Shown one piece after another: positions 9,198 through 60,424 of a stretch of DNA of 64,000 nucleotides (position 1 is its first letter; the number at the start of each line of letters is the position of its first letter). The position numbers and the translations under genes were made by a program. Under the pieces are notes generated by a model. That model had not been told where the DNA came from, did not search any database, and saw only the letters and a list, made by a program, of their open reading frames with translations. The DNA is taken from the NCBI GenBank assembly GCA_963855995.1, contig OY979728.1, forward strand, positions 2,652,330 to 2,716,329, given 5' to 3'. This stretch comes from Muricea muricata. Taxonomy: Eukaryota > Cnidaria > Anthozoa > Malacalcyonacea > Plexauridae.

Positions 9198-11868
9198 ATG
9201 ATGTTGTTGGCAGGAATTTTGGCTTTGAGTCTTGTTACAACGCTTTGTGCTGTGAGTATAAATAAACAATTTATTTTGAATCTAGTTCAAAATAATTTGA
9301 ATATAAGGCAAGTAAAGTAAAATATATTTTTATTTGAGGTGTTTCTGTTAGTACGATAAAGCCAGATACAAAAGCAGCATGCACTAATTAATTAATTTCG
9401 TTAATGTACTACAATTTTCACTGGACTAATAATTGTGTGTTCAGACTCTTACTGAACCTCTAAATAAAGTCATTATTTAAGTTAGCTCAATTCAGGTCAG
9501 TATAACACTGAATCAATAAAAAGAGATGATACTTAGAGATGGAACTGATAGAGCAATCCAAAAGAAAAAATAGTTTAGTCAGCTTACTATAGTTGTATAT
9601 TAGGCGTATATAGAGGAAAGCCTTGTCGTATTTCTATACATAATAGTATAGGATTAAGAAAGCTTGAACTTAGAGTAAGTTTTAATGTAATGCTCAAGCG
9701 CTATTATAAAGGAACTTAGGTCAAAATTTGATTTAAACACACCAGGAAAATGGTCAACTTTCCTATCGCACAGATGGCAAGTCTGAGTGGAAAATAGTGG
9801 CAACACTAAAAGATGTAAGTTATATCCTGTGTACAACTACATTCACAATATAAAATGCCTGCTCAGAAAGATATGTGGTTGACTTGGGTTCTCTATGAAT
9901 TTGCTCAAGCATATGGAACCATTTTATTGACATAATGGTCTGGGATTCCTGGTGGAATGATTTTTTCTCCTTTACAAATAGATTAAAGATATCCTCAGCA
10001 AACTTGATAAAGTCGACAAGAAACTTACCAACGCAGATACAGCTGCATTTGATAAACTTGATAAATTCGACAAAAAACTGACAAACGCCAATCAAGCTAC
10101 CCTTGACAAACTCAATAAAGTCGACAAAAGACTGACTAATGAAGATACAGCTATCCTTGGTAAACTTCAAAACTTTGAAAACAAACTTAAGAAAGTCGAT
10201 AAAGGTATATTTGTGTATTACTACTTTGGGAGATACCTTGATTCGCCACTTACCTTGTCATGTTTTTTGCCATTAAATAATACACTAATGCCACTATTTT
10301 TCCGCGTAGATGTGAAACGAATCCTGCAAACAAACCAATCCTGCAAACAAATATGGAAGTGTCAAAGGTACAAGAAAAAAGTGGTTTAAAATTTTGATTC
10401 AGTGTTCAGAATCTCAATGTAAACAAAACGAAAATAATCTCGCTGTAATCCTTAAGATCTTTTACTAATTTTTTTACAAGGACGTACCCTTTCCTCATCT
10501 TTCCGATGACTACGTGATGCTACCTTGTTCTTGAATCAGTGAATGTGTTAGTCACGCGCTGCAAGAACGAGGTAGTCTCACGCTTTGTTATTAAGTGCCC
10601 ACCCATCTTTCCGATCTTCCAATGACATTTCTAAGATAATTGGATTCTACTTTATATTACGTAATGTGTTAATTATATTACAGTAACAAGGAAAGTGGTG
10701 TTTATCAGATAAGTACTGGAAACAATCAACACACCAGTGTGTACTGTCAAATGTCGTCAATCTCAGGTTGTTATGGTGGTGGTTGGACATTGGTGATGAA
10801 GGTTGATGGAAGCAAGGTAAGACTATGATAAAAAACTATAATTTTTTGATTAAAATAACTAATTTAAAATTAGTTGTTTCACAAATTTTGTTTTTAAGAA
10901 TACATTTGGCCAAAACAAACAAAAAAAATGGTTGAAATTACCAAATTCCTTGTTGTTTCAACCAGTAAAATATTGGTAAAATAGAATGCATCTGAGACAA
11001 CCAATTTGTTTTTACACTTAAAGGCCTATCTACACAATACGATTTGCAGCATACAATTCTTACTCTGGCGTGTGGAAACGATCGCTGATGCCAGCTTTTT
11101 ACTCGTTCGCTGATGGCCAAAATTTGAAATCTGACGTTTTTACGCGTATTTACTCGATCACATATACCAGAGTAAGAATCATATGCGACAAATCGTATCG
11201 TGTAGATAGGCCTTAAGACATCTTAACTTATGTACAGCTAGTGTTTGTGAATATTGAAACTGTAAAATGTGATAAAATCTTTATGATCTCTTCGGATTAA
11301 ATTCCGGATTAGGACAAAATGTGATCGATTTTTAACGTATTTCGCTTTGCAGACAACTTTCAGTTATGGTTCTTCTTCCTGGAGCAACAAAACAACTTAC
11401 TATGACAACAGTTATGGACGAGACGGAGGTTTAGACAACCGGCAATATAAAGGATCAGCTTATTGGAAAACTTCATTTAAAGAAATTTGTGTTGGTATGA
11501 AATATAACGGCAATCTCAGAGCTTTCTCAATCTCGTATCCTGCCTCATCATTGTATGATTTGATCGCAGACGGCACATATCGACCAACACACCTTGGTCG
11601 CAGCAAATGGAAATCATTAATCTCTGGATCATCCTTGCAGCTAAACTGCAATCGAGAGGGATTTAATGTTTACCACAGCAACACAAGAGCTCGTTTGGGT
11701 ATTGTTTCAAACCAAGAAAATGATTGCGAGACACCCGACTCTCTCATTGGACTTGGAATTTATCGGGGAGGCACGGGAAACGTCGCGGGCAATGTTGCAT
11801 CCTCACATTATTCGCCAGACAACGGAGGAAAGAATCTCAAAGTCATGGGATATATTCTGGTCCGTTGA
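9198..11868 (+). CDS. Gene A: secreted single-domain fibrinogen-like lectin
   Basis: Six exons with GT-AG borders: 9198-9251, 9746-9814, 9982-10204, 10310-10367, 10684-10816 and 11353-11868 (TGA). All phases agree, giving 350 aa. Residues 1-18 (MMLLAGILALSLVTTLCA) are a signal peptide, and the start matches genes B and C. Residues 19-41 are a short linker. Residues 42-115 are a coiled coil made of about four 18-residue repeats (KVDKKLTNAD type). Residues 116-350 form a fibrinogen/intelectin-like domain with the GGGWTLVMKVDG signature, GRDGGLD and a C-terminal VMGYILVR. The last domain resembles cnidarian skeletal organic matrix protein 5-like proteins (family knowledge). Expected role: an extracellular oligomeric recognition or matrix protein; the ligand is unknown. 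Compared with C it lacks the first fibrinogen-like domain. Confidence 0.8.
9395..9640. repeat. Degenerate 120-bp dispersed repeat in gene A intron 1
   Basis: Contains the words 'ctgaacctctaaataaagt' and 'actgaatcaataaaaagaga' followed by 'gaactgatagagcaatcc' and 'agtttagtcagctta'. The same order is seen in the clearer copies at 25690-26010 and 42510-43180. Confidence 0.5.
9982..10204 (+). repeat. Gene A coiled-coil exon: four 54-bp units
   Basis: In-frame tandem repeat of 18 codons (LDKVDKKLTNADTA-type). The exon is 223 bp, against 115 bp in B and 277 bp in C; the differences are exactly two and one units of 54 bp. Confidence 0.85.
10518..10577. other. Short intronic hairpin
   Basis: CTACCTTGTTCTTG (10520-10533) can pair with CAAGAACGAGGTAG (10562-10575), with one mismatch and a 28-nt loop. 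It is too short for a typical microRNA precursor and has no evidence of conservation in B or C. Confidence 0.25.
10845..11017. mobile_element. Relic of the CCAAT-palindrome transposon family
   Basis: Intron 5 of gene A contains AACTAATTTAAAATTAGTT, several ACCAAT/ATTGGT words, ATGCATCTGAGACAACCA and a right end AACCAATTTGTTTTTACAC. This parallels the right subterminal and terminal sequence of the large element at 1935-5040. It is about 170 bp and internally deleted. Confidence 0.65.
11022..11212. mobile_element. 191-bp MITE with ~45-bp TIRs, TTAA target
   Basis: The left arm from 11022 (AGGCCTATCTACACAATACG...) and the right arm ending at 11212 (...CGTATCGTGTAGATAGGCC) are inverted complements over about 45 bp with few mismatches. 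TTAA flanks both sides (11018-11021 and 11213-11216), the target preferred by piggyBac and Kolobok elements. It directly abuts the relic at 10845-11017 inside gene A intron 5. Confidence 0.75.
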
Positions 11869-12061: not shown

Positions 12062-13535
12062 CTTTAATTTCTACTATCAAGTTTTTCTAAAATTTTTGAA
12101 AAAGTGATGTATAATCGCATTATTGATTTTGTGGATCGATCTGAAATTCTTTATCCTCTCCAATTTGGATTTCGTACGAATCATTCCACAGTCTCTTCAC
12201 TGACATATCTGATCAATAAAATTTCGACATCTATTGATCAAAATGAAGTTACCGTTGGTGTCTTTCTAGATCTGTCCAAAGCATTTGATACCCTTGATTA
12301 CCAAATTTTGTTTTCAAAACTGGAACATTATGGTATCCGTGGTATAGCATTGCAATGGATCAAAAGCTATTTTTATAACCGCAAACAATTTGTCCAATTC
12401 AATAAGACCCGCTCCCCTGAATGTGTTATCAAGTGTGGTGTCCCTCAGGGTTCAATTTTGGGCCTATCATTTTTCCTACTTTATATTAATGATCTTCCTA
12501 ATGCTATAGAATTGGCAGAGTGTTTACTTTTTGCAGATGATACTAGCATTTTCTTAAGCCATTCCAATTTAAGTTATTTAATTTCTAAAATGAAAGCTGA
12601 ATTAGAAAAAATAAATATTTGGATGAAAATTAATAAATTATCAGTCAATATTGGTAAAACAAATTATATTATTTTCAGACCAAAACAAAAGCCTATCGCG
12701 TTGAACATCACGTCAGTATTATTTGATACAAAACCGCTTAAAAGAGTAAGAGTTGTTAAATTTTTAGGCATTTCTATCGATGAGAATCTTTCATGAAAAA
12801 TTCACATCGATCATGTCTGCAACAAAATTTCTAAGTCTGTTGGAATTATTTCTACAGCACGTTTTGTGTTGTCTACTAAGACAAAACTGTCGTTATATTA
12901 TACCTTAATTTATCCTTACATTAGTTTGATCGTCAACATATGTCACTAGTCTCAATCGCATATGGTTACTTCAAAAACGAACAGTACGAGTTATACTAAT
13001 TCTCCGTACCGAACTCATTCTGCTCCTTTATTCCTCCGGTTGAAAGTATTAGACATATTTAAAGTCAATACTTTTCACATTGCGAGGTTTATGTTTCTTT
13101 ATCATAATCGTTTGCTACCAATATCTTTATTAAATTTATTTGTAACTAATAATCAAATACATAGCCACAATACTAGAAATGCAAACTCTTATCGACCTCA
13201 TTGTTGTCGTACAAACATAAAGCAATTTACGATTCTTTATCAAGGATTCTTTATCAACAATGAAACGTAGTAATAGTCTAAGTTTGTTTAAAAAATTTCT
13301 TCATTGTTTTTTACTCAACGAATAAGCGATTCTGAATGTATTATGTATATGATCTAAAGCTATTATATGTTCCTAACTTCATTATGTTTAATTAAATATC
13401 AACATGTTTTGTATGATATCAATACGAGGTGATCTCGTTTAAAAGCTTTTGCTTCTAGAGATCCCCTCACCACATTTATATTTCTTTTAAATATTGATTT
13501 GCATATACTTTTATATGTGTGGTAAATAAAGCTAG
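12062..13535 (+). mobile_element. 5'-truncated CR1/L2/Jockey-type LINE
   Basis: The protein-coding remnant opens in frame at 12062 with SFSKIFEKVMYNRI, then HSTVSSLTYL, motif A VGVFLDLSKAFDTLDYQIL, motif B KCGVPQGSILGLSFFLLYIND and motif C FADD. The main frame stops at 12794-12796. Coding similarity continues in other frames to about 13270 (for example the THSAPLFLRLKVLDI region), so there are at least one frameshift and one stop. The 3' end is near GGTAAATAAAGCTAGC (13511-13526). PQGS and LDLSKAFDT are characteristic of the CR1/L2/Jockey group; I do not separate these further. Confidence 0.8.
12104..12796 (+). pseudogene. LINE reverse transcriptase fragment
   Basis: An uninterrupted 230-codon segment covers RT motifs A to D, including KINKLSVNIGKTNYIIF and VKFLGISIDENLS, both typical of LINE RT palm-thumb regions. 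It lacks the N-terminal endonuclease and has its thumb and C terminus broken. It is a dead copy, lying between genes A and B on the same strand, inserted close to the 3' end of gene A. Confidence 0.8.
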
Positions 13536-21167: not shown

Positions 21168-23894
21168 GTATTATTTGGTTTTGATTGTTTTAAGAGAAAT
21201 CTTAGCACATGCATCATTTACCTTATTATGTATTTTGGCATCAAATAATACACTAATGTCACTATTTTTCGGGTAGGTTTGAAAATTCTTACGCACGAGT
21301 CCTGCAGACAAATATGGAAGAGTCAAAGGTACAACGGAAAAGTGAAACAAACCGATTTAATCTATCACGATGCAAGCGAAACAAAAAATAAGGGACCATG
21401 CAAAATTTATTTTTGCACGGACCCGTAGAAAAATCCGAGGCACATACTTTTTTAGTTGCATAGAAGCGGGGCACGAAGATCTTTTCTGTCTAGGCTTTGA
21501 GGTGGGACACACAGTTTATTGGATACCAAGCTAATGAAATAAAATATGCTCATATGTGCATGCGCTTATTAATTAATATCCTTCCACAATAGATCATTAG
21601 AAAATAATATGTCGACCATGAAAGAAGTCATTAGGAACTCCACAATTTTTATTTTGATATGTGAAGCATACAGAGAATTCTTTTGAGAAACTTGAACAAG
21701 TTTTTTTTTTAAAAAAGTACTTAATATATAGCTTCAGCTTTTCTTCAGGAAAGTACAAACTTTCTTTTACTGACGGTAGTGCAGCAGCAAAAAAGCAGAG
21801 CTCGAAGCGGAGAAAGAACTTTTATCCCATGCAAGCAACCCAAGAAGACATGCTTTTTTAACACTGAAAATTGTTTTGCTCTGGCTTAAGACTCTGTTAT
21901 ACTATGCAACTTATTTAGTAGTGGACCCCTTTAATTGCAATCCTGACATTTCCCACCATAATTTTCTAAAAAAAACTTCTTTACTTTACAAATTGCCACT
22001 CTGTAATTAAACTCGATTACACTTCACGTTACGTAATATTTTATTTACATTACAGTAATAATGGAAGTGGTGTTTATCAGATAAGTACTGGAAGCAATCA
22101 ACACACCAGTGTGTACTGTCAAATGTCGTCAATCTCAGGTTGTTATGGTGGTGGTTGGACATTGGTGATGAAGATTGATGGAAGATATGTAAGACTGTGC
22201 AGATACATCATGATTTAATGCACAGCTAGTTTTTGTGAGCATTAAAACCGTGAAATGTGTAAAATCTGTTATCTTCCGTAACGACTTTGATTGATCATCA
22301 ACACTTCGATGACAATATTGACACAATCAGGATGCTCAAGCATCATTTATTTTGCCGTTAAAATGTTTTAGGATTTTGGTAGGATATGAATATTGAAAGA
22401 GAGATAATTTTTAAATTTGTTTTTGCAGAGTACTTTCAGATATGATTCTTCCCTCTGGACGAGCACAAACACCTGGAGTGACTATAGTTATGGACGAGAC
22501 GGAGGTTTAGACGACCGGCAATATAAAGGATCAACTTACTGGAGAACTTCATTTAAAGAAATTTGTGTTGGTATGAAATATAACGGCAATCTCAGAGCTT
22601 TCTCTTTCTCGTATCCTGCCTCGTCATTGCATGATTTGATCGCAGACGGCAGATATCGACCAACACACCTTGGTCGCAACAAGTGGAAATCATTAATCTC
22701 TGGATCATCCTTACAGCGTAACTGCAATCGAGAAGGATTTAATGTTTACCACAGCGGTGTAAGAGTTCGTTTGGGTATTTTTTCAAACCAAGAAAACGAT
22801 TGTAATACACCGACTCTTACATTGGACTGGGAACGTATTTTTCTTGGATCGTTAGGACAACTGCCGGTAATCTAGCGTATTGCTGTTCGCCAGACAACGG
22901 ACACAAGGACCTTAAAGCCATGGGATATATTTTGGTCCGTTAAAAGTGACTCAGTAACTTGATTCATGCCATTCATTTAATTATAGAGATAAATAATTCT
23001 CAATTAGTATTGATAATAATTCTTCATTAATGCTAGTTCTATAGGACCGCGCAAGGGCCAACAGTCTCAAACAGTTTCTATTTAATCAGACAATTGAATG
23101 GTAGAAAATTAATAACTTTTCAATGTAATCTGTCTTAAAAAATCCAGGTGTGCATGAGCATGGAGTTATATATAGCTAATATATCTAAGTAATCTATATG
23201 TAATACTTATTGAACACCTATACAATAAACATATAATCGACCAACTAGTGTACTGAAAAGGATTTAGAATAATTCATACTTATTCTGACTAGTAACGCAG
23301 CCAGAAAAGCACCATTCAACTATCAAACGTGCTGAAACAAAAACACTGAATAGTTTTTTAAGCTTGAAATGTTTTCCACGGAAAAATATTAGGCCCACAA
23401 CAATTATTAGTTGAATAACGAAACGACGTTCAATTTTGAGGGTTACCTGTACAGGTTTTTTTTTCAAAATGAACGCTTTACAAAAAAGAGAGGATCTTTT
23501 GTCAGATATGAAACCCTAGCATAGCAGTCACTTTCCTTTTTGTTATAAATGGTTAACTTTTGAAACATTTTTTACTAAACTAAACCAAATCAAATTTGGC
23601 AGAGCAGAGAAAGAGAATTAATGTGAATTAATATATTTCGATGGCAGCATCACGTGGTATGTTTGTAGCTATGCATAGTGCAACAGTGCACCAGGATTAA
23701 ACATATGGATTAAACAATAGAGGCCCAGATTTGGCTTCCAATACCTCTACCGCTACCTTAATCTATCCTTCAGTCAATCAGATGTGCCGGACCTACCCGA
23801 TTAACCAATCAAATTGTTTAAAAATCGGTAGTGGTAGTGGTAGAGGAAGTCAAATCTGAGCCTCACTAACGTTTTGCTGCTCACATTGTTCATA

Positions 23895-30200: not shown

Positions 30201-33200
30201 CACGAAACTAATGTACTGAATCAAAATAACTAATGGAAAATTCAACGAATTACAAAAATGTGACGTCAAAAATATGCCTAATTCGTCGCCCTTTTCATCA
30301 TATGTTTTTGTGATCGTAAATTTTCGAAACTTCCCACGCAATATTACAAATTTGGTAAAGTAATTAGCAACAATCAAAACAAACTTGGAAACCGCGCTTT
30401 GAAAAGTGCCCTAAAATCGACTGTAATATGATCTATGAATACTTTGGTAAGTATTTTTTTTGGAAGAATTTCCACTGTAGTCTGCCATCTTGGTTGAATG
30501 GTTTTCACCTGACAACCCTGTGCTCATAATCCAATTCCCATCTCTGTTTCAAGTTTATAAATGATCAACACTATATTCTCTCATTCTGATTGTTATTCTA
30601 TTAGGATAAAATGAACAAGTGTTTCAAAGAAGCTTGCCGAGGTGGTTTTGCGTATCTTTTGCATTACCATATTGATATATCTGGCTCATACAGGTGATTA
30701 TTTTATTCTAGTTTGCGATCTTTATTGAAAATAAAGGTAGACATAACATGGTTAGCAGACATGAATGTCATTCTTATTCTATTTTGTTCAAAATTAAGTT
30801 ATTATCTTACATATTGAGCTCCTTCATATACCAAGCACGAAATCAACAAATATCTTGTTTTGTTCCTTCATACAGCTACAGTGTCGTCAATGGACGTTCG
30901 GGGATACAGGATACTCAAACATCATTCATTGGATGTGATCACGGAAAGGTAGATTTGTTTCTAAAATATTTGATATTTCTATAGCAAAATTTCACCTGCA
31001 CGTGCATATGACCGAACAACTTGACCTAGATTATTTCAAATACGAGATTAGTCAAGCCACAGGGCAAAAAAAAATCCAGTAAATTTAGATGACGAATTAT
31101 CACGCTTTACTGAATTTGATACTTAAAAACCTGCCTTAGAAGTTAAAGTAAAATAGTAAATATCAAGCTGCTGGTAACCGATTGAAGGATTTCATGTTGC
31201 TGATATTTTAGACGAAAATACAAAAATTAAACAATCCAAGAATAATGTTAATTTTATTCACAGTGCTGCGCATGCTTTGGTCCAGACACGAAGCAAGATT
31301 ACTGTGCACCTAAATGTCAAGCAATCAATGGTGGAACAGTTTTGAAAGAAAAGAACAACATTACAGTTTGGTTTTGGATCCGTTCATCTTTACCAAAACG
31401 TGTTTGGAAAAAATGCATGGAGTTTAAAGAAAAGAACAGTGCAGGAAAAATGGAAATATGGCGTGTTGAAGACGGAGTAAGGAGAAAGGTAATTGATTAG
31501 CTTAAACTGCAAACATAACTGATAACAATCTAGATCTTATAAGACATCCATTGTTTGTATAGGGTTCATGTTCAGTTTCTGAAGATGTCACAATTAATGA
31601 TGGGGTAAGCTTATCAAGTGTATGGGTGCATAGATTTTATCGACCTCTTTAATAAAGGCTCAACATTGTAGGCTTGTATAGCTAAGCTTGTAGCCAGTAG
31701 CCACTGCATTAATGTGAACTTGAATTTGTCGCTAGGATGGGTATTCTAAAGTTATACCTGCACTTGCCCTTCTGATGCCACAAATAGAATTTTCAAAATT
31801 GTACAAAATTGTGCACACACAGCTGTATTTTAACATGATTTTCACGTAATTGAAAGATCATTTGAAAGAGCAGTTTTGTACATTGTCCTCACACAGGTTG
31901 CAGTAGTTGGCAACAATCGATCAATGAATAAACTTCCAAAGCTAAATGGTCTACTTTCCTATCGTACTGATAACAGAAAGCTCTATCTCAAAGACATTTC
32001 TCAGTGGAAAGCATTAGCGACACAAAACGACGTAAGTTATACCGCGTGTATCAGAGACATGTTTGGCGACCTGGGTTCCAAATAATTTGTTCAAAAATAT
32101 ATGGCTTTATTCGTTTACATACAATAGTCTCGTCATTTACTGGTGAAATGATACTTTTCTTTTTTACAAATAGATCAAAGACGTCCTTAATAAACTTGAA
32201 AGAGTCGACAAAAAACTGACGAAAGCAGATACAGCTACCCTGGGAAAACTTGATAAAGTCGACAAGAAACTTACAAACGCAGATACAGCTGTACTTGATA
32301 AACTTGATAAAGTCGATAAAAAACTGACAAATGCCAATCAAGCTACCCTTGGCAAACTCAATAAAGTCGACAAAAGACTGACGAACGCAGATACAGCTAC
32401 TCTTGGTAAACTTCAAAATTTTAAAAACAAACTTACGAAAGTCGATAAAGGTATATTTGGGTATTACTATTTTGGGAGATACCTTGATTCGCCACTTACC
32501 TTGTCATGTTTTTTTCCGATTAAATAATATACTAATGCCACTATATTTTGGGTAGATGTGAAAATTCTCACACATGAATCCTGCAGACAAATATGGAAGA
32601 GTCAAAGGTACAACAAAAAAGTAAAACAAAACCGATTTAAATCTGACGTTTGAAATGGCCTAAATCATTATTGGAAATAAATAAATTTTCAATAAGTGCC
32701 TGGATCCCAATGTAACTAAAAAATAATATCGATGAAATCCTTAAGATCTTTTACTTGAACTTGCTCTTTCTTCACATTTCCTGGTCTTCCATCGTCAGTG
32801 ACATTTCTAATTGAACTGGATTGTACCTTACGTCACGTGATATTTTATTTATGTTATAGTAATAAGGGAAGTGGGGTTAATCAAATCAGCATTGGAACCA
32901 ATCAACACACCAGTGTATATTGTAGAATGTCGTCAATCTCAGGTTGCCAGGGCGGTGGTTGGACATTAGTAATGAAGATTGATGGAAGAATTGTAAGTCT
33001 GCGATCCTCCTCATTTTTTTTTATTGACCATCAACACTTCGATTACAAAACTATCATAATCGGAATACTCAAGTTTGATTCATTTTCCCATTAAAATGTT
33101 TTAGGATTACAGTACGATTAAATTAAGGATTAGGCAAATGTTGGATTAAATTAAGATGATTTTTTATTACAGAGTACTTTCAGGTATGACTCTTCCTACT

Positions 33201-33673
33201 GGACGAGTAAAGCAACTTACAATGACAATAGTTATGGACGAGACGGGGGTTTAGATGACCGGCAATATAAAGAATCAACCTACTGGAGAACTTCATTTAA
33301 AGAGATTTGTGTTGCTATGAAATATAACGGCAATCTCAGAGCTTTCTCTTTCTCGTATCCTGCCTCTTCATTGTATGATTTGATCGCAGACGGCAGATAT
33401 CGACCAACACACCTTGGTCGCAGCAAATGGAAATCATTAATCTCTGGATCATCCTTGCAGCGCAACTGCAATCGAGAGGGATTTAACGTTTATCACAGCC
33501 AAATGAGAGTTCGTTTGGGTCTCCTTGCAAATGAACAAAATGATTGTAATTCACCTGACTCTTACATTGGACTGGGAGGGAATCGGAACGCTGCTGGTAA
33601 TCCAGCACCTTGCTGTTCGCCAGACAACGGACACAAGGATCTTAAAGTCATGGGATATATTTTGGTCCGTTAA
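27291..33673 (+). CDS. Gene C: secreted two-domain fibrinogen-like protein
   Basis: Fourteen exons with consistent phases and GT-AG borders give 742 aa: 27291-27344, 27981-28116, 29126-29241, 29447-29655, 29791-29977, 30605-30693, 30876-30948, 31264-31488, 31563-31604, 31897-32031, 32174-32450, 32556-32607, 32860-32992 and 33173-33673. Residues 1-18 are a signal peptide (MMLWAAILALNLVTKLCA). Residues 19-63 are a short Cys-containing module. Residues 64-300 form a first fibrinogen/intelectin-like domain (ESGVYWIQTKKG, AWCDVETDNGGFLLIG, FIGCDHGKCCACFGP). Residues 300-377 are Cys/Trp-containing and unrecognised. Residues 378-422 resemble a multiplexin-type trimerisation module. Residues 423-515 are a coiled coil of five 18-residue repeats. 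Residues 516-742 are a second fibrinogen-like domain (GGGWTLVMKIDG, CNREGFN, VMGYILVR). This predicts an oligomeric extracellular lectin or matrix protein. The ligand is unknown. Confidence 0.85.
32174..32450 (+). repeat. Gene C coiled-coil exon: five 54-bp units
   Basis: Head-to-tail 18-codon units (LDKVDKKLTNADTAVLDK and variants). The spacing of 18 residues equals five helical turns, so leucine and valine positions return to the same helix face. Confidence 0.9.
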
Positions 33674-36520: not shown

Positions 36521-37320
36521 TGCACATTGTTACATATATTGTAAAAAATATAGCAGCGATATTTATAATAACAACTGATTGTTAAATTAATTCAAATTAA
36601 TTACGCTATCAAGTGCTTTTTCCTCTGTAACTAAAACAACCTGCCCGCTTCCCACGTCATTCCTAAAGACTTTTTGAGAATGTTTTCGAATAGCGTGAGT
36701 AGTCGAAAGAAAGTAAAAAGTATAAATTCTATAGTTTTCTATCTATTGATGGTTGCTGATGTTAATTTTTTTGTTCGAATCTTTACCTTGCACTAATGTG
36801 AATATTTCTTGGGGCACTGCTTCTGTTTAGGGTACTTGATGATGAGGGTACTCGATGAGTGACAAATCATGAGGAATAGCCCTTAACTCCTTAATAGAAA
36901 AACATTGAAGAGAGTGACCCTCTTCTGATCTTATCTATTTAATGACTATGATATTTGACAAAAGAGGGGAATATCGACAGTGATTTACTGTGAGTCAACC
37001 TGTCTTACTTAAGCCTGGTTAAACTTGTCGTCTCCATCTCACGTATGTGAATAAACATGTCAACAAAGTAAATTATAGGACGAATATTAGATAGCTTTTG
37101 TAATGGTATAGAGTTCACTGAATCACATCGGCCAGAAGATGTCATCTCCGATTTTCACGACATCATCAGCAGAAAAGCTACAAGGTTGCGATACAAAAGT
37201 CTCCTTAAAGCATATACACGTTACGGCTAAAGCTGAGCAGCTAAATGTACTACATAAGATAAGCACATTGTAGAAAACTACCCCGAGGTAATCAATCTGC
37301 TTATATTCTGCTTAACTATT
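36521..37320. other. Non-coding, no feature recognised
   Basis: AT-rich DNA between the end of the segmental duplication and a minisatellite. No exon, RNA gene or repeat recognised. Confidence 0.4.
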
Positions 37321-37673
37321 GAGTCTCATGATCCATGGACGTATTTTTCTAAACAACATTTATCAATCTGGCTTAACTATGGAGTCTCATGATCCAAGGA
37401 CGTATTTTTCTAAACAACATTTATCAATCTGGCTTAACTATTGAGTCTCACGATCGAAGGACGTATACGTATTTTTCTAAACAACATTTATCAATCTTGC
37501 TTAGCTATTGAGTCTCATGATCCAAGGACATATTTTTCTAAACAACATTTATCAATCTGGCTTAACTATGGAGTCTCATGATCCAAGGACGTATTTTTCT
37601 AAACAACATTTATCAATCTGGCTTAACTATAGAGTCTCATGATCCAAGGACGTATTTTTCTAAACAACATTTA
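37321..37673. repeat. 61-bp minisatellite, about 5.8 copies
   Basis: Unit landmarks: GAGTCTCATGATCCAAGGAC, GTATTTTTCTAAACAACATT, TATCAATCTGGCTTAACTAT. Starts are at 37321, 37382, 37443, 37510, 37571 and 37632. The third unit carries a 6-bp insertion (TATACG). Copies are very similar, so the array is young. Confidence 0.95.
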
Positions 37674-42107: not shown

Positions 42108-45100
42108 ATGGAAAAGCTTTTTCAGGGATTAACTTCACAAGAGTTCCTCGAACTGTACAAACTTCTGGTGAAGACCAATTTGTTAGAAAATAAAACGCTG
42201 TTTACCAGAACTGGCATTTTGGAAACGTTTCCTCTCACGGAAGATTTCATGATTTGTAAGTATTACTTACTGAGAATATTTCATACCGAGAAATACCTGC
42301 GCATGGGTACCGTAGAAATACCTACGGAATACATAGTTTATAACCTTGTGTGACCTTACACAGGGTTCTGATGTGGCATACAGTAATGTCCAGTAAAGAG
42401 CACAGGTTTTATACATTAGGGTAAAGTTAGGTAGAAATATCTCCATTACCACATCAAAATTTAAAACAAAATTGATTAGAAAAGACACAATCATACACTG
42501 TTATCCAATTAGTTTAGTGTAGCTTTCCTCATTTATTAATACTGAATCAAAAAGACGATCTCTACTAGTCTTTACTAGAGCTCTAGGTAAAACAGTCCAG
42601 AACTGATACAGTCATCTAAATAAAGTGTGTCTAGTTTAGGCTTTCTTGCACATCAAAACTAAATCAAAAAGAGATGATCCTGGGAAACACAGCTAATTCA
42701 AAGATAATTGAATTGTTGTTCAGTATGATAAATAAAGTCAGTTTATAGTTTAGGTTTCCTGCTTATTAAAACTGGATGAGTAAAAGCTGATACTAACTGG
42801 AGCTCTAGGAAAGAATTCTGATAGAGCCATTAACAGGTACTATAGTAAGTTAGTTTAGTTTAGTTTAAGGTTTTCTCCTTATTAAACCCAGGACAATACG
42901 AGAAGATCTTTATTGGTCCTCGAGGAAAAACAGTTTAGAACTTCCATGGTGTTGTTTAGTGTGAATAAGTTAGCTTAACTAGTTTAGGTTTCTCCTATAG
43001 TAACACTAGATCAATCTAGAAAAGTGGAAAGAATAATATAGAACTGATACAGAACTTTCCAGCTTAATATAATGTTATAGTTTAGTTTAGGTTTCTCCTT
43101 TGATAATAATGGTTCAATAAAAGATGAATATTGCTGCACTTGTAGGGAAAGCAGTTTGGTACTGAAACATGACATTAACATATCCACCACAAAACGAACA
43201 ATAATATTTAAATAATCTCATGTGAATCTTACAGTAAACCTTTATGAATCTAAAAACAATTATTCAGAACTTGTAGAGCATTCTATACAGTTCTTATTAA
43301 CGTGGGATGTAAAAAATGCACATATGAACTTAATTTATCAAAACATTGGAGACGTAGTAAGATTACAGGGATGATACGATACATTAGGGTACATCTTTTA
43401 GGGTCTGATACATTTAGGTACATTGGAGTACTAGATAATAGGTTGAAGTAGGGGACATTAGGTACAGCACAAATTGCTTCTTAAAAGCAGGTGATACGCT
43501 AATCTCTTCAGATAGAATTAATGTCGAGTAGGTTTTGGTATATATAGACACCTATGTTTTAATATGGGTAACACAGATATTACAAACTAATACTACAGTT
43601 TTCAGTTGTGCAGTTAAAAAGCATTTAGGTATGTAGAAGATAGAATTAAGTAGAAGGTAAAAGCAAAACTTTGACGTTTTAACCATAGGAAGTGCATAAG
43701 TGATTATATAAACTACTCGTTGGGTCTTCGTTGGTGAGATAATGTTATTTTTCGATCTTTTACGTTAGTAGTACATGCTTTAAGGCTTCAGTTTGTAGAA
43801 ATGATCACTATCATAAAAGTTATATAACATTAAACGCCACGAGACAAAGTTAACGTTTCAATCTGAATGTTTTCAATTCGGAATCGCACGATGTGTCGTT
43901 AGTTTTGTACTTGTGTAGTACTTTGTGTCGCTGTAACTTATAATTTTTCTTGAAACCATTGTAATTCAGGTTCGAACTGCAAACTTTGCTATACTAAAAC
44001 GATTTGACGTCTAACTATAGAAGTCAAGCGATGTTCATCTTTAAAAAATATGGAATAGTTCGGCAGATACAATTATTGCAAGCGTAATCTGTGTAAAGTC
44101 GAGTTAGGACGTCTCTTTATTGTGATATGAAAGATATCAGTTGTACTATGTTATCAACGTTAATTAATTGTACAAGGCTCGTTGTATTCTATGCGATTTT
44201 AACAGTTTATGTGACAAATTTTTGAAACTTTACATGACAAATTTTTCTCACGAAGAATTTAGAGACCCGCCTTTAAAGGGTCTTTTATTCAGTTTTTTTT
44301 TATTGACATACTATTGTATCCCAAGAATCACACACACAAAGTGCTTTAATGATTGTATGTTTATTTATCTGGGTAAAATCTTCATATACTTTCCCTAACA
44401 TATACTGAACAACTATTACACCCCTTTCTAATGCTCTAATCATACTACCATATGGAAATTTTCATATAGACTCGGATGAAATGACAGAAAACGAAATGAA
44501 GGAAGATTCAATACTTCCAGAACCTTGTGGAAACTACTGCAATTCTATTATCAACAGAACTCCCCAGTGTACGGTAGAATTCGTAGATTTAAAAGAGATT
44601 TACGAGAAAGTGCAAAGTCGTGCAGGAGGTGGCTCACATCAACGAGTTTCATCGGGGATTATAAACATTAAAGCAACTTCTCAAGGACAATTGTGTGCTA
44701 TAAATGTATTTGTAGAGAGAATGCCTGAAGCGGCCACCTTGTGTGGCGATACTAACGGAAGGGTACTGTTAGAAGTAAATCATGAAGACTATTTTCAGAA
44801 TCAGGTAAAGCTCAACGATTTATGATTCATTCTGTGGGATATGTAGCAAGTTGACAACAAAGCAGTAAATTTTTTGTAAGATTAGAAGTGCATTAACTGG
44901 GCAGCAAAATATGTAACGTGACTAAATTTTCTGTGGCTAAATTTTGTGTGCGAAGCGGATTTAGATGAAAACAACCAACCCACCAATCAACCAACCCACC
45001 AAACAACTAACCAAACAACCAGCCAAGCAAACAACCAACTAACCAACCAACCAACCAAACAAACAAACAACAAACCAAACAACCAGCCAACCAAACAACC

Positions 45101-45629
45101 AACTAACCAACCAGCTAGCTAGCCAGCCAACCAGCCAATCAACCAACCAACCAACCAACCAACCAACCAACCAACCAACCAACCAACCAACCAACCAACC
45201 AACCAACCAACCAACCAACCAACCAACCAACCAACCAACCAACCAGCCAGCCAGCCAACCAATGAGCCAACCAACCAGCCAACTAACCAACCAACAAACC
45301 AACCAATGTTGACTGGCAAATGTTTCAGCATTATTTAGCTATTTAATCTGTAACTTTGTCATTATCTTACCTGGCATAACAACTAAAAAAAATCTCTATA
45401 TTTTCAGCAATTATTCTCGGTAGATCTGGATTCAGTATACAACACCCGCGATGGAACCCCTGTCTACAAGCTAGCCACGGTGGATGCCGAGAGAAGAAAT
45501 CTTTTCCACTTAATTGTCTTTCTCAAATTTATCGATGGCAGTGAAGCAGGACCATTTGTTAGCAAGCCTTTCTTATTGCGAAGTAGAAAACCTTCAGGAA
45601 GTCGATCAAATTCATTTGAAATATTCTGA
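42108..45629 (+). CDS. Unassigned three-exon gene, 234 aa
   Basis: Predicted exons 42108-42255, 44470-44804 and 45408-45629 join in frame (phases 1 and 0) with GT-AG borders. The start ATG at 42108 has an in-frame TAG at 42051-42053 upstream. The protein begins [20 protein letters not shown], has an acidic patch after the first junction ([12 protein letters not shown]), and then a compact region with [27 protein letters not shown] and [17 protein letters not shown], ending in a basic [11 protein letters not shown] tail. The alternating hydrophobic strands suggest a beta-rich fold, but I do not recognise the family. Past the TGA the frame stays open for 40 more codons to TAA 45750-45752, and that stretch also looks coding. 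Intron 1 holds a repeat array and intron 2 a microsatellite. No signal peptide or membrane segment. Upstream exons cannot be excluded. Confidence 0.5.
42510..43180. repeat. Degenerate ~120-bp tandem array, five or six units
   Basis: Within intron 1 of the unassigned gene, units with 'agtttagtttaggtttctcc', 'tattaaaactggatcaat', 'gagctctaggnaaaacagt' and 'ttagaactgatagagc' repeat. Same family as 25690-26010, but more diverged. Confidence 0.75.
44965..45305. repeat. AACC microsatellite (~340 bp)
   Basis: Pure (AACC)n in the centre (about 45137-45244) with interrupted flanks (AACA, AGCC variants) on both sides. It lies in intron 2 of the unassigned gene. On the minus strand it opens GWLV-repeat frames, which are shadows. 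Confidence 0.95.
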
Positions 45630-46599: not shown

Positions 46600-49500
46600 A
46601 TAAAAACTGAAAAAACCCAACCTTCTTAGAATATTGATACGTCAACAATACATTTGAGTAAGTCCAACTGGGCATGCATCGAGCATACAAAAATGTTCAC
46701 AATTGTCCCAAATATTCCCCATGTACACCTTCATTGGGTACTAAAATACAACCAAATTGTGGTTAGATCTCCCACTCGTTTTTTTTTTTCTTCAATACTT
46801 CGAATCGAAACACAGGAGGCAACAAATCATGCCGGCGTCATTACACTGCTCTGGAGGTGGTACAGGTTTCCGCATCCTAGCTGCAACCAAGCAACGTAAC
46901 GTACACAACCTGTTCTGGAACAACTCAAACAATGTTTTGCTGCCCACATTGTCCAATAGCGGTAAATACCAACCTAAAATCATCAGGCCTTGTGATTGGC
47001 CTTTTGAAACAAAAGTCATCATTGTTTGTGATCAGTGAACTCTATAAATACTGGAACGATAACTCCAGATAAAACCCCTACGTTTGGGTGAAGCCAAGAT
47101 GGCGGCAACAACTACAAATGTCGTAAACAGTCTTAGATGTATTTTTCCGAGGTATTTTTAAAAAAGACTGTATCGCAAACTAGGTTATAAGTTCATAAAT
47201 CATAAAATTAGTACCTCTTAAATCAAAATAAAAGCATCAAATATCGGTACATTCCCAGAAGAATGGTGTCAACCGCGCCGAGAAAACAATAGAAAAGGAC
47301 TGAACTTGATAACCTATTGATAATCAATTTGGCTTCAAAGATGGCGGCCAAGTTATCGTTCCAGTTTAATTTAGAGTTCATTGTTTGTGATTCGTTATTT
47401 AGAAAACCAATTTCTATACTTGTCTTTCATTGTTATAACCAAACACTCGCAAAGCTTGATGGTATAGGTTGGTGGCGACCCGTTCAATGTTGCCAAAATT
47501 GTTGTCAACATTGTTGAGCCTGAATTAGCCTGAATTAGCCTGCAATCAGGTGTACCAATCCACAGCAATATTGTTGACAACCTTGAACAATGTGGGCAGT
47601 AAGACATTGTTCAATGCTGCTTTTATCAGCCCAGAACAGGTTGTTCGTTTTTTTGCTGAGTATATTTTTCTGCTTGCGTGGTCAGTAAAATCTAGACTGG
47701 ATCTGTATAGTACTCGATCAAGCATCCAGAAGCCAACGGAAATGACAAATTTGGAGTACCAAGATGGCGGACAATCAGCATTTTCAACGTGTAAATAAAC
47801 TTCCTTATTTTTAAGGAAATTTACTGAAATTAAAAATTCTGCTTAAAAGTTACTCGCGCACCCGCAAAGAGCACTGGACCTGGAGTACCAAGATGGCGGC
47901 GATGAACTTAATTATGAATGCGTGACCAGTATTATACAGATCAGTGGACTGGATACAAATAACTTGGCCGCCATCTTTAAAACAAAATTGGCGTACATGA
48001 AAAATTTTTTGTTGGTATAGTTGACACCATTTTGCCTCGAGATCTAACATTTAATGTTTTTACTCTGATTTAAAAAGCAATGTTTTTGTTCATCGAATTA
48101 TAATTTTGTTTTCGATACCGTCTTTCGTAATAAAGGGAATAGCTGGAGAAAATAACATTAAAACTATTTACGATGGAGAAGAACAATGGATAAGTCCAAC
48201 CGGTTAACGAAAACATGTTATTTTTATACAAAAACTGTTGTTGTTTATCAGTCAAGGCAAAACTATTTTAGGCATATATTGACAAACGACTGAAAATCAC
48301 GCTGTGCTTATAGTCAAAAATATCCACTGTTCGGTATATTTTTGCTGCTATCAGCACATCTTAACAATGCCCTGTGGAGGGCAAGATAATATGCAAATAT
48401 TAATTGGGCTTTGTAAACTACACAGAACAAGTGAGACCTTTTGGGTGAATTATAGTATCAATATTATTACCCTATACAATTAAAACACAGAATATACGAA
48501 AAAAATTTTGTAAACTGTCAATTTTTATAAGTTTACTTAAGCTCGGATCTTTATATCAGGGCTAATTATTAATTAGCATTATTAGTGCATTAGCTTTTTA
48601 TAATAACGATGCACTTGACCACAGGACCCAAAAGTACCCGCTAGCGTGAGCTGGAGGTATTTCAGAATTTTTTCCAACAATTTTGGTAGACCACCAACGA
48701 TAGTTAATAGAAATTCCAGAGCCTATCAAATCTTACAGAATTTATTTTGTGAGCAATCCATTTTTTTCAGCCAATACTTTGCAACCAACAAGAAGCAGTT
48801 TTAAACAAACTTTCATCTGGCGTGTTATGCACGTTCACATTGAAATTTTCACAATTGTTTTCGCACATTCTAATGTGATTTATTACAGTAGAACAACATA
48901 TATATATAGTGTAGTTAACTACAAATTCTCTTGACGACAGTATTTGTTATGTTCTGCGTGGCATATTATCGTGCATGCCAAACCACCAAGAATATTATTT
49001 ATAATGTCAATTTTGCTTGCTTTAAAGGTTTTCTTGTTTTCACATTTCTTGTTTTTTTACTTACATTACTTACATTATAACTTAATACTGGTTTTTTTTT
49101 CAACAGACAAACTTAACTTGGATTTTGCTTGGTGGCCCAACCAGGCATTCCAAAAAAAATGGTGGCCCATCCAAACAACTGAAATATTTCCATGACCCAT
49201 CCCAAATCACTCCGACCCACCCTAGCAGATAGTTTTTGACCGGTCCTTTTAAGAAATATTCGAGTAGTTTAAAACAATCTTCGTCGATTTCTTTCAAATT
49301 CATCCATGTTGAATTTACCCATGCAACAATTCCTGCTGTTAACTTTGACAGCAGAAACCAACCTTTGAGATGTAAAACGCAAAGCTACGACAGTACTACT
49401 CATTAGAAACAGGCTACAGATGCACCGAAGGAGCATATATAGAATATTAAAAGTACACATCTAATGTGATAGCTTAAAATAACTGATGGCTCAAACTAAT

Positions 49501-50287
49501 ATTGACGTAATGTGCATTAAAATTTCAAAAGTGACATAATTGCCTATTTGGAGGTGATGATCCATGCAAAGCAATGTCACCTAGTGTCTTAGCTGAGACA
49601 ATGAAAACGATATGTGAATGATAAATGACACTCTTGCATCGGAAACATCCTAAACCTTTCTAAGTAGATTGGCCTCCTCAGAGCTGCGAAACCACACAAA
49701 GGTAAAATAATTCAAATAACCACAACACCACATTATAAATCCAACATTTTAATCACATTTCTTTTGACCTCGATCAACTATATTATACTTCATATTCACA
49801 AAACTAGAGAGTTCTTACGAACGATATATTATTATTTTCTAAGACATAACCGGTGAAATATCCAAAGCGAACAAGAGCGCGACACCGCGGCTTGATTACA
49901 AACTCACTTAACGAGGGATAGGCCAGCCCACGCGATATGTATATATGGCAACAATGTTTTACCCAAACGCGTCAAAATTAATATTGACTAAGGACAATGC
50001 TGATCCAACATACTCGCTTTCTCGAAGTGTTTGGTAACAAGTCCTTCCCACAAACTCTCGTTTGTCTCACGAGTCGTCAGCGTTTCAAAACCGACCAATA
50101 CAGGACCCGCCTGACGAGATTGGTCATGATTAAACCTCACTTGTTCTCCTTGATGTTCACGATATGGAAACGGAAATTTATCCTTAAGACATATTTAATT
50201 ACATATTCAGTATCACAGAGACAAAACAACTACAATTTCGACGCATATATAAGTTCTAAGACAGTCACAAGTTGACAACAACAAAAG
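46600..50287. other. Repeat-rich non-coding region
   Basis: Contains dispersed-repeat relics (46905-46965 inverted; 47560-47630), a cluster of AAGATGGCGG motifs (47095-47978), and a GGTGGCCCA repeat pair (49130-49165). None of the short ORFs has a recognisable domain. 50150-50287 may be the 3' UTR of the minus-strand gene that follows. Confidence 0.45.
47095..47978. promoter_or_regulatory. Cluster of YY1-like motifs
   Basis: CAAGATGGCGG at 47095-47105, AAAGATGGCGGCC near 47338, CCAAGATGGCGG at 47759-47770, CCAAGATGGCGGC at 47888-47900, and the inverse GGCCGCCATCTTT at 47966-47978. The metazoan YY1 consensus is AAnATGGCGGC. Two copies share a longer context (GGAGTACCAAGATGGCGG), so part of the cluster arose by local duplication. 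Confidence 0.5.
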
Positions 50288-50527
50288 TTAGTTTCCTGCA
50301 CGATCGAGACCACCAGATCGGCTGTTATTCAGCGAGTCCCCGACAGCCCTGAGAGCCGAGCCGATCTCGCTACATGCTCCTCGTTGCTCGTTTGATACTT
50401 CGTTTTCATTTCCTCGCATATTGGCGGCATTTTGACGAGCTTCTCTGTTTCTTGCTTGTCGCTCCTTGCTCTCGGTGCGACGGAGGCTTCGTCTTCGACT
50501 GTTGCTTCGTTTAAGAGAGATACCCAT
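50288..50527 (-). CDS. Candidate BH3-only protein, 79 aa
   Basis: A single uninterrupted minus-strand ORF: ATG at 50527-50525 in a strong context (TTCACCATGG), TAA at 50290-50288. The N-terminal third is Arg/Ser-rich (KRSNSRRRSLRRTESKE), with possible basophilic-kinase sites. The middle is polar. Residues about 53-68 read SEIGSALRAVGDSLNN, matching the BH3 pattern hydrophobic-x3-L-x2-hydrophobic-G-D-x-hydrophobic exactly. BH3-only proteins bind the groove of Bcl-2 relatives and trigger or sensitise mitochondrial apoptosis (family knowledge). No transmembrane tail and no other BH motif are visible, so it would be a BH3-only type. A splice acceptor-like TATATTACAG about 25 bp upstream suggests a 5' UTR intron. 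The alternative of a bZIP basic region is less likely, as no leucine zipper follows. Confidence 0.6.
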   Translation of the reverse strand: MGISLKRSNSRRRSLRRTESKERQARNREARQNAANMRGNENEVSNEQRGACSEIGSALRAVGDSLNNSRSGGLDRAGN

Positions 50528-51018
50528 GGTGAATTTCGTATGGAATGCTGTAATATAGTAAGGCTAGTGAGCATGGTGAATGCTAAATCGTTCTAAAACG
50601 ATACGATAAATATTATAATGTATTAGCGTATAGAAGCTAGGTTCCCATTTAGCCGTAACTACGGACTTCTGAGAATATAAGATTATAGGCTGTAGGTCAC
50701 CGATGTATTGACAAAATATATAGGTAGATCTCAAAGATTGAACACGGTCTGGTGTTGGAGGACTAAATCCCTCGTCTAAAATGACTTTATAGTCTCTGGT
50801 CGAGAAACTGTATTGTTTCTAATATGTAATAATAAAAAGGGCTTTCTAAGAATAACATTTAATTTGCTATGTTCAAAATATTTAGTCTTTCATCAAGTCT
50901 CCAATCAAAGAACCTCTTGTTGCATTCTTTGTAAAGTGCATATACATACATTATCAAAGATCATAAAGCATCTATTGATCATATATTCAAAATTTTGTAT
51001 GTAATATTATCCACTTGT
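50528..51018. other. 5' flank of BH3-like gene
   Basis: AT-rich; no exon recognised. An overlapping minus-strand ORF (50574-50329) in another frame is a shadow of the BH3-like gene. Confidence 0.4.
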
Positions 51019-51045
51019 CTGAAGATGTCTTAAGTTAAGACGAAA
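51019..51045 (+). other. Hammerhead-core-like motif
   Basis: CTGAAGA (51019-51025), a small hairpin GTCTTAAGTTAAGAC (51027-51041) and GAAAC (51042-51046) follow the conserved order CUGANGA, stem II, GAAA of hammerhead ribozymes, such as those in Penelope-like elements. Stem III and the cleavage-site strand are not evident, and one unpaired base sits at the base of stem II. Confidence 0.3.
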
Positions 51046-54000
51046 CGTCACATAATAAATACTTTCTATTTTAAATCTTATTTTCATGGCTTTACTCAAA
51101 GTATTATGTTGGGCATTGATCTTTATTATAAGAATACGTTTTCCGCCTGGCACGTCTCTGGCTACAGTATCTATTGATCACCGAAACTTTGTTTATACCT
51201 TATATTATTGTCAAAGACAAACGCTAAGCCAAAATACATACGTTTCATTATGTTACTATTTACCCTTATATTTAAACGTTTAATTCTTTACTACAACTGA
51301 ATCCTAGACTTTGTATATGCTTATACACGCATAAAATATCATAATTAGTATATTTTCTTGTCAAACATCAGATCATTTTACTTCAGTGCCAGAGGGAATG
51401 AACGAAAGTGTAAGATCCTTGACAACAGCAAATATTATTCATAAACAATGTGCTTCATCTTCCTAAGTTGGAAATGTCTATAAGTGGTCGTGAAATACTT
51501 AACATCTTAGTGATAAATTTTAATACATGCATCAGTTTGCAATATTTCAAGCTGTTCACAATTAGTTTACACCATATATAGCAAGTATATGCGATCAAAG
51601 TAAGTAAGTGATATATTGTATTGTTGGATAGTTGATACCCGAGCTACCGCGACGGAAATATGATAACGCAACGCCATCTCAATCTCTAACAGGAACTTCG
51701 ACTTTCCTATATATAGCCAAAGAGTTCTCCCAGAAGCTGAAGCTCTTATATGTATCAGACAACAACTTTTTGAAGCTTTGCACTTTGAAGACATTCGTGC
51801 ATTTGCAAAAAGCGTACATTGTCATACAAATTTCAACAATACAAACTTCGATACAAACTGGCATAATGTTACATACATGTTTGAAGTATACTCTGTATTA
51901 ACACGGGCAGAAGGCTAGTCGTGCAATGGGTTTCTCGATATCTCAGTAAAAGGTTAATCTTTATTCGAGCAGCAATGACATAATTTGATCTCTACTTCTA
52001 GCTGACTCTTTTCGCTTCTAAGTCTAAGCATGCTATGGGAAAAGGCGATAAATATGTATACATACACATCATATTCTAGATTGATAGATAACTTTTCAGA
52101 AGTGCCTAGTTCGGCTAGAAAATGATGCAGTAAAGTTCAAATCATTTGCTTGGCTGAACATGTCTGTGTCATCAACGCAACACCAAAATATTTGGCAAAA
52201 ATTTCAAAATAAATTGGCTACAGTACATATAACAATAAGCATAATACTAACCGCTGATACTTTGTAGATCTTGTATATGTTACGATTAAATATCCTTTGC
52301 GGTATAATACGTTTATTTCGCTTTGAGCTTTTGATAATCGATTGTGATTCAATGCTTAAACAGCTCACGGTCATTAAAGCTGTGTCTGTTTTGTCATTTG
52401 GTTGCCGGGTTTATATATGATCTCAAGAAGCTCAAAATAGCTTTAGACGACTGCGCGCATGCGTGCTTCGGAAGTCCAAGGCACAGAGGGGAATTTCTGT
52501 TCGCAAATATGGCACACGGATATCACTAGTTGGGGTCGATTTTGAATCGTGGGGGATAAATTTTGTTGTTGTTCAAACTCAGCATTAAAAATATCAGGCT
52601 TTGTATAGATATGTTCATAGGAAATACATAATATTATGTACTATCTGATAGATTTAATAAAATTTTTTTGAAGGTTTTTTAAAAATGAACGCAACTTTTT
52701 TATCAGCTTACTTTTTTAATAGTTGAATGACAGCCCTTCCTCATTTCAAGTATGATAATATGGGAAACCATCAAACATAAAACATGAGGGTCTATGTAAC
52801 TACAACCTAGGCTAAAATGATTTCCGATACTCCGAGAGTCCTATAGTCAATGGCCAACATTCAAGGACTTGGCAGGTAAAATGTTCCAGTTAGTGAACAT
52901 CATAAAAATCCATGTTTAAATTGAGATAAACTAGCTTATAATAACAAGCTGGCAGTTTTTTCAAACTATGCGACGAAGCATTGGAGACCATTGGAGCATG
53001 ACCAAAGTCATGAGACTATATCTCGCTTACATTACTTCATCAATCGTCATCACTATAGAAATTTAATCGGCTCTCTTCTGCAATTGTAATGCGTGTTTCC
53101 CCATAAGCAATTTATATTTATAGGTATTTATATCATATCGAGTAAAGTGCAAAGCCTTTACTAGCCAGCTTTTTTCACATATATTATTACGTATCTACTA
53201 CCATATATACAGTATTGCGCTATTTTTCTTAATTTGAGGCAAATTGTATAGCGAAAGCAACAATATCTAGATATTCATTTACTCGTACGTAGGCATTTTT
53301 AAGCTGTTCTTAACCAGGCTAGTATAATACACCTAATGAATACTTTTTTGTACATTTTGTTATAGTTTTGTACCTTTCTCCAAGTGTTTTTTGCAAGAAA
53401 TCGTGCGTGACACACTGTTAGCTTAAAGATAACGACAAAGATCTGTCAATAATATTTGCTTAAATTAATAAAACATTTGGGTCTAATCCTTTTTTCGTTC
53501 CGCAGAATGTCTGACCGAAGTGTTTTATTGAGCAAATATTTTGACAACTGTGATATATTTTTTTAATCTTACCCTCAGAGTACTTAAAAATCATAGAAAA
53601 TTCCAATTACTGAAGATGCTGAAAAAATATCTTTATCAGATGACATATTATTGTTTAACAAAACTGAAAATGGCCTAAAATTTGTTGTAAATTTTAATGG
53701 TGGTAAAGCACAGAAAAAGTCTTTCCAATTTCTTTGTTGAAAATTTGATGCTTGATATCTGAATCTACTAAAACAATCAGATTACTCACTCTCAACTCAA
53801 TTTCTATGGGATGATAGTTGATTAGTTGTTTCATCACTGCCCAGAAATGTCGAGCTCGAAATCTAATTTTTACATATAGTGTGTTGTAAGATTGAATATA
53901 TGTGATGTAAAGAATCATGTTGGATATTTTCTGAACCTGAAAAGTTTGAAAACTAATCTTTGCATGAAATCCGTGTGTTGAAAATTTGATTCAATGTTTC

Positions 54001-59694: not shown

Positions 59695-59705
59695 AGCTAT
59701 TTACC

Positions 59706-59813
59706 GAGTTAGGATTCGAGTTGGGATTCGAGTTAGGATTCGAGTTGGGATTCGAGTTAGGATTCGAGTTGGGATTCGAGTTAGGATTCGAGTTAGGATT
59801 CGAGTTGGGATTC
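59706..59813. repeat. 12-bp tandem repeat, nine copies
   Basis: Alternating GAGTTAGGATTC and GAGTTGGGATTC units. Being a multiple of three, it opens an Asn-Pro-Asn-Ser repeat frame on the minus strand. An inverted copy of about 2.5 units is at 60425-60458. Confidence 0.95.
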
Positions 59814-60424
59814 GATGACATTTTATAAAATATGCCGGTATATAGAAGTAAATACTGTGTTTTTGTATCGAGAATAACCTCTAAAGTAATTCCTAATGGC
59901 CTTTTTAAAAAAGCGCAAAGGCTGTGATTGGAACGTGTTATAGGATGCAAAGCTGTAATCTTTCACTCAGAACCTGGTATTCGTAATACAATAATGTGTT
60001 ATACAAATTGTTATAAATGACGCGGTTCTTGAACTAATCTTCAATAAGTGCGCACATACTTAGCCTGCACTCGAGACTGGAACACAGGCTAGCACGTACT
60101 AGCATACTGCATGCAGATTGTTTGCAAGTTAAAGTCTTATTTAAAAAAAGTGAGCTTGTGTATGTTTTCAATGTGAGTCGTAAGTTTAATTTATGACGCA
60201 GCTTGTCAACGTGTCTCCATTTACGTGCTGCTATAATCACTACGATGTCCGTGCTTTCCGTTCAATTTTGAGACTCCGATTATGCCATAACCAGTAAAAG
60301 AAGCCGAAGACTTGGCATTGCGCGAAAAAGGATCTGTTTGCATGGGCGCTTTTTAAAAGATAGATTGTCTATTATATTTTTGTCACATATTTCCCGTTTG
60401 ATTAACATGCGAGTGCAGCCTCAT
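59814..60424. other. Spacer between inverted 12-bp repeat blocks
   Basis: About 610 bp without coding potential, bounded by the repeat and its inverted partner. The whole of 59700-60465 may be one small foldback or MITE-like element. Confidence 0.35.

Follow-up and report, generated by a model that had tools for sequence, protein, structure and literature searches.

Does a 79-residue open reading frame (ORF) in the genome of the anthozoan Muricea muricata encode a BH3-only protein, as an original prediction had proposed? The question bears on corals in general, for which published work reports several multidomain Bcl-2 proteins and describes BH3-only ones as difficult (PMC4083563, PMC4715348). 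In one of these papers no BH3-only protein was identified in Acropora digitifera (PMC4083563), and the other calls the coral BH3-only repertoire "of particular importance", yet challenging (PMC4715348). Such a gene would be useful if real because it would make this coral gap testable and, with a near-consensus BH3 as its candidate, would open the step from stress to cell death to direct test. As a class, BH3-only proteins would be no novelty in cnidarians, candidates having been listed in a paper of 2022.

The open reading frame and its coding potential

The ORF lies on the minus strand of a 64,000-nt stretch of contig OY979728.1, the whole of which is referred to here as the window. On re-reading, its coordinates, strand, length and peptide matched the original prediction exactly, and the Arg/Ser-rich N terminus and the start context that had been described were also present. 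The features of the locus are as follows:

50288..50527, minus strand: candidate single-exon coding sequence, an ATG ORF of 79 aa, stop codon included (ORF list; GC 0.52; RNY 0.388)
50324..50371, minus strand: BH3-like motif SEIGSALRAVGDSLNN, residues 53-68 (pattern scans, permutations, spacing as in BAK and LB-Bak-2)
50408..50527, minus strand: basic Arg/Ser-rich N terminus, residues 1-40, net charge +10 (translation, charge count)
50524..50530, minus strand: start context ACCATGG (letters read directly)
50548..50562, minus strand: possible 3' splice site cttactatattacag, with an exon from 50547 (AG scan)
50329..50574, minus strand: 81-aa ORF in another frame, overlapping the 79-aa ORF and starting at an upstream ATG at 50574

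The length of the ORF is not significant and was dropped as coding evidence, since 477 of 3,000 composition-matched 550-nt regions carried an ORF at least as long. Its GC content (0.52, where the window averages 0.349) is the joint highest among 240-nt stretches sampled every 20 nt, the other GC peaks, near 45.1 and 46.0 kb, overlapping a CAAC array and a G-tract, and its CpG observed/expected ratio is 1.30 compared with 0.87 in the window. RNY codons account for 0.388 of the ORF frame versus 0.215 and 0.127 of the other two frames. This value was reached by 0.0016 of 5,000 Markov shuffles when the frame was fixed, by 0.0034 when the best of the three frames was taken and by 0.0011 of 3,510 shuffles that were open by chance. 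The codon-position composition of the ORF gave 0.0138 and 0.021 in shuffles, and the overall codon-position signal in the ORF frame is modest (p about 0.002-0.02). Along the minus strand, the RNY fraction in this frame was 0.35-0.40 in four 120-nt windows over the ORF (starts between 50540 and 50360) and 0.30 and 0.25 just outside it; a comparable value (0.38) was found in another frame at 49881-50000, and the measure is blind to strand, being equal on both strands in register.

Additionally, the ATG of the ORF stands in ACCATGG, which we take to be a good start context, and the possible 3' splice site cttactatattacag ends 20 nt upstream of it. The same 300 nt contain 19 AGs in all, and this one has a pyrimidine fraction of 0.6, the best of the others having 0.73; the site is put forward as a suggestion only. 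If the acceptor before 50547 were used, the upstream ATG at 50574, which opens the overlapping 81-aa frame, would be removed from the transcript. Taking these data together, we consider it very probable that the 79-aa ORF is coding.

Searches for relatives returned none. The 79-aa protein matched 0 Pfam families at E values up to 10, in agreement with the proposal that it carries no further BH motif; a Bcl-2 fold was likewise not indicated, and no PUMA or NOXA family model was matched in Pfam at the same limit. Used whole as a query against solved structures it gave no match, and a phmmer search with residues 45-75 had as its sole matches a coiled coil of artificial design (E 0.33) and talin-1 (E 0.95), with no BH3 peptide among them. 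In viral contigs, 19 stretches matched the search pattern and in prokaryote genomes 438 did, 0 of which were confirmed as relatives in either collection. An animal orphan is not expected in any of these four collections. Within the window, no further copies of the ORF were found beyond short matches with E 0.45 or worse, repeats in 48500-53500 consisted of short pairs only, and Rfam gave no hit over the whole window. The surroundings had been described as otherwise empty DNA. The nearest exon-like open frame that we inspected ends at 45629 on the plus strand, and 20 further ORFs of at least 60 aa overlap 47000-54000.

The BH3-like motif

By the definition given in a review, a BH3 motif combines four hydrophobic residues with a single acidic one (PMC9171138). 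In the 79-aa ORF the hydrophobic positions HP1 to HP4 are I55, L59, V62 and L66, with G63 as the central glycine, D64 as the acidic residue and N67 following HP4, so that, counting from I55 as i, L59 lies at +4, V62 at +7, G63 at +8, D64 at +9 and L66 at +11. The same spacing of the four hydrophobic residues and the acidic one is found at the positions given for BAK (V74, L78, I81, D83, I85; PMC9171138) and for the sponge protein LB-Bak-2 (V71, L75, F78, D80, V82; PMC5386376); unlike these two, the 79-aa protein lacks a tail and matches none of the Bcl-2 families in Pfam. Furthermore, a structural survey that lists preferences relative to the central Gly gives L/V/I at -8, S/G/A at -7, L at -4, I at -1, D at +1 and N at +4 (PMC9934389). 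The residues of the 79-aa ORF at these positions are I, G, L, V, D and N, the sole departure from the listed consensus being Val instead of Ile at -1.

The claim that every defining position of the consensus is matched thus stands for HP1 to HP4, the glycine and the aspartate, but not for the full PROSITE BH3 pattern, in which 14 of 15 positions fit and N68 falls outside the allowed set. The full pattern gave 0 matches, and the same pattern minus the N68 position gave 1. We do not regard this misfit as disqualifying, because published BH3 patterns are described in the review as poor predictors, of little predictive value (PMC9171138). In the same field, BH3-only status is stated to require demonstrated binding, sequence alone being insufficient (PMC7022251). 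According to that source, human BH3-only proteins span 54-198 residues, a range that includes the 79 aa of this ORF.

The significance of the motif was evaluated with a core pattern consisting of the four hydrophobics plus the glycine and the aspartate. This core, whose residue classes were picked after the sequence had been seen, had 1 match in the six frames of the whole window, which is the 79-aa ORF, and 1 match among the window's 70 ATG ORFs of at least 60 aa. Among 100 shuffled windows it occurred somewhere in the six frames in 25 and in ATG ORFs of at least 60 aa in 0. In 1,200 shuffled windows built from 500-nt Markov blocks, which average 38.5 such ORFs and hence fewer than the 70 of the real window, the core appeared 12 times in ATG ORFs of at least 60 aa and the 14-of-15 form 0 times. 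At 12 per 1,200 windows, dozens of core-bearing ORFs would be expected by chance in a genome whose size is several hundred megabases.

When the 79 residues themselves were permuted, the core arose in 11 of 300,000, 84 of 2,000,000 and 304 of 8,000,000 permutations; with the -7 residue added it arose in 36 of 8,000,000, and with both the -7 and the +4 residues in 3 of 8,000,000. The loosest pattern, which asks for four hydrophobics and any residue that is acidic or an amide, turns up often, being found in 32,580 of 2,000,000 permutations and in 9 additional places in the window's own ORFs, and the very loose Lxxx[GAS]D was uninformative (36 in the six frames of the window versus 42.5 in shuffles). 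The core motif in the 79-aa ORF exceeds chance.

With respect to structure, the charge-hydropathy value of the chain (0.348 versus a boundary of 0.450) places it on the disordered side, which is what a BH3-only protein would be expected to show. AlphaFold2 run without an alignment predicted a single helix over residues 5-77 (mean pLDDT 85.0, pTM 0.47); a predicted helix as long as the chain would allow a BH3 helix and is unspecific to it, and so adds little. A fold search with this model was dropped because one helix would match anything. The hydrophobic moment is high at residue 55, in the BH3 stretch (0.379), and has its chain maximum of 0.393 at residue 12. The motif is followed by 11 residues, and the top 19-residue Kyte-Doolittle mean in the protein is 0.11, so that the membrane tail is absent, as had been proposed. 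N-myristoylation of the N-terminal MGISLK was considered and dropped because Lys at residue 6 is unfavourable. p53 half-sites, considered as a hint of control by stress, were uninformative, with 15 in the window versus 16.4 expected.

Human PUMA shares EIG....LR....D.LN with the 79-aa ORF, and human NOXA is short and has a GDKLN core. Both human proteins have hydrophobic C-terminal parts, which the 79-aa protein lacks.

A candidate BH3-only protein and the alternatives

Our favoured account, to which we give about an even chance, is that a short gene has its coding sequence in this ORF and specifies a BH3-only protein that would be mostly disordered, groove-binding and death-promoting. The proposed reading as a BH3 is supported by the hydrophobic spacing, the Gly-Asp pair, the small residue at -7, the Asn at +4, the low hydropathy, the short length, the codon-position signal and the possible acceptor for a 5' UTR, whereas the chain-long predicted helix is unspecific and no BH3 peptide was matched among solved structures. 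From these data we infer a gene that would be transcribed with an intron in its 5' UTR and whose product would bind a Bcl-2 protein of the pro-survival type, the BH3 helix filling its groove and D64 pairing with the BH1 arginine of the partner. Pore formers of the Bax/Bak/Bok type would thereby be freed and the mitochondria permeabilised, which would be the death-promoting outcome. Having no membrane tail, the protein would act from the cytosol and might be tethered to mitochondria through its Bcl-2 partner, and the Arg/Ser-rich N terminus could be a site of kinase control. The estimate for this account combines the high probability of coding with that of a BH3-only function, which, if the ORF is coding, we place somewhat above even in a rough weighing of a handful of BH3-only genes among some tens of thousands with the probability, about 4e-5, that a protein of this composition shows the core by chance.

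Codon-position signal backs coding and not function, however, and the same ORF could encode a genuine small basic protein, restricted to its lineage, in which an amphipathic helix near the C terminus resembles a BH3 by chance. Such a protein would act in another way, perhaps by binding nucleic acid or forming a coiled coil via its Arg-rich N terminus. The predicted helix spans nearly the whole chain, the spacing i, +4, +7, +11 is a heptad pattern too, the top solved-structure match of the BH3 region is the designed coiled coil mentioned above (E 0.33), and the dozens of chance cores expected per genome point the same way. A plain heptad, on the other hand, has no need of the Gly-Asp pair, the small residue at -7 or the Asn at +4, and the full feature set came up in just 3 of the 8,000,000 permutations, and we regard this explanation as unlikely, if still a serious one.

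The alternative that the locus is a non-coding GC- and CpG-rich patch, open by chance, draws on the frequency of equally long ORFs in composition-matched regions (477/3,000), on the raised CpG ratio and on the lack of relatives in Pfam, solved structures, and viral and prokaryote DNA; the codon-position signal, the start context and the BH3 motif all argue against it, making it improbable. It is also conceivable that the ORF supplies a single exon to the gene of a longer protein, in which case the term BH3-only would be wrong even with a working motif, as in a Beclin-like protein. The frame is indeed open between the possible acceptor and the ATG, where an upstream coding exon could join, but a good start context stands directly after the acceptor, RNY in frame is lower on either side of the ORF, beyond the start codon as well as beyond the stop, and a single GT[AG]A donor-like site is present in the upstream 300 nt, so that very little probability falls to such an exon.

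Returning to a BH3-only protein as the favoured account, comparison is possible with other cnidarians. In Hydra, four BH3-only proteins have been proposed (HyBH3-only 1-4), with a two-hybrid screen (PMC10192318, PMC7022251), and Fig. 5 of PMC8998228 shows cnidarian BH3-only candidates, the accompanying abbreviation list including Hydra, Clytia, Acropora and Nematostella. Compared by description, the 79-aa ORF is like these candidates in its short and putatively intron-free coding frame, in the disorder predicted from charge and hydropathy and in the conserved Leu and Asp of the BH3; it differs from the Hydra proteins in that these are backed by the two-hybrid screen. The gene may itself be orthologous to a candidate in that figure (PMC8998228). 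In the fuller reading, a coral-type animal would have here an unannotated BH3-only gene whose product lacks a tail, has a regulatory N terminus rich in Arg and Ser and carries a canonical BH3 close to the ideal. The gene would then be one missing upstream trigger of the cnidarian mitochondrial death pathway, of which the Bcl-2 and caspase components are known. This reading falls a little short of an even chance. If it is true, such genes would be findable in raw sequence from the combination of motif, codon-position signal and start context.

Other features of the window

Several further features were observed in the window. Three similar lectin-like exon frames lie on the plus strand at 11287-11868, 22408-22875 and 33155-33673 and have stretches such as YPASSL and LIADG in common. 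They matched no Pfam family, and the frame at 33155-33673 had no match among solved structures at E values up to 1; they are reminiscent of cnidarian or coral fibrinogen-like or skeletal-matrix proteins. Tandem repeats of 54 nt, of about KLDKVDKKLTNADTATLG, occupy open frames at 9982-10389 and 32174-32527 (plus strand), each shortly upstream of a lectin-like exon, an arrangement that would fit a gene duplication in which each copy has a stalk of repeats and a head of the lectin-like type. One of these repeat frames gave a weak match to Pfam CdaS_N, under the cut-off.

Reverse-transcriptase fragments, presumably derived from retrotransposons, were found at 881-1942 and 12068-12796 on the plus strand (Pfam RVT_1, E 2.3e-32 and 2.4e-27). 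Two exon-like open frames on the plus strand, 44409-44825 and 45411-45629, flank the 335-nt CAAC-type array (44972-45306), the latter frame being preceded by the acceptor-like sequence attttcag; neither matched a Pfam family at E values up to 1, and they may represent the 3' end of a gene of the host. In addition, the peptide NVGSKTLF is common to the ORFs at 46792-47022 (minus strand) and 47550-47798 (plus strand), and its presence on opposite strands suggests an inverted repeat or the remnant of a mobile element. Lastly, tandem arrays are present at 37310-37673, with a unit of about 61 nt, and at 59705-59815, with a unit of about 12 nt.
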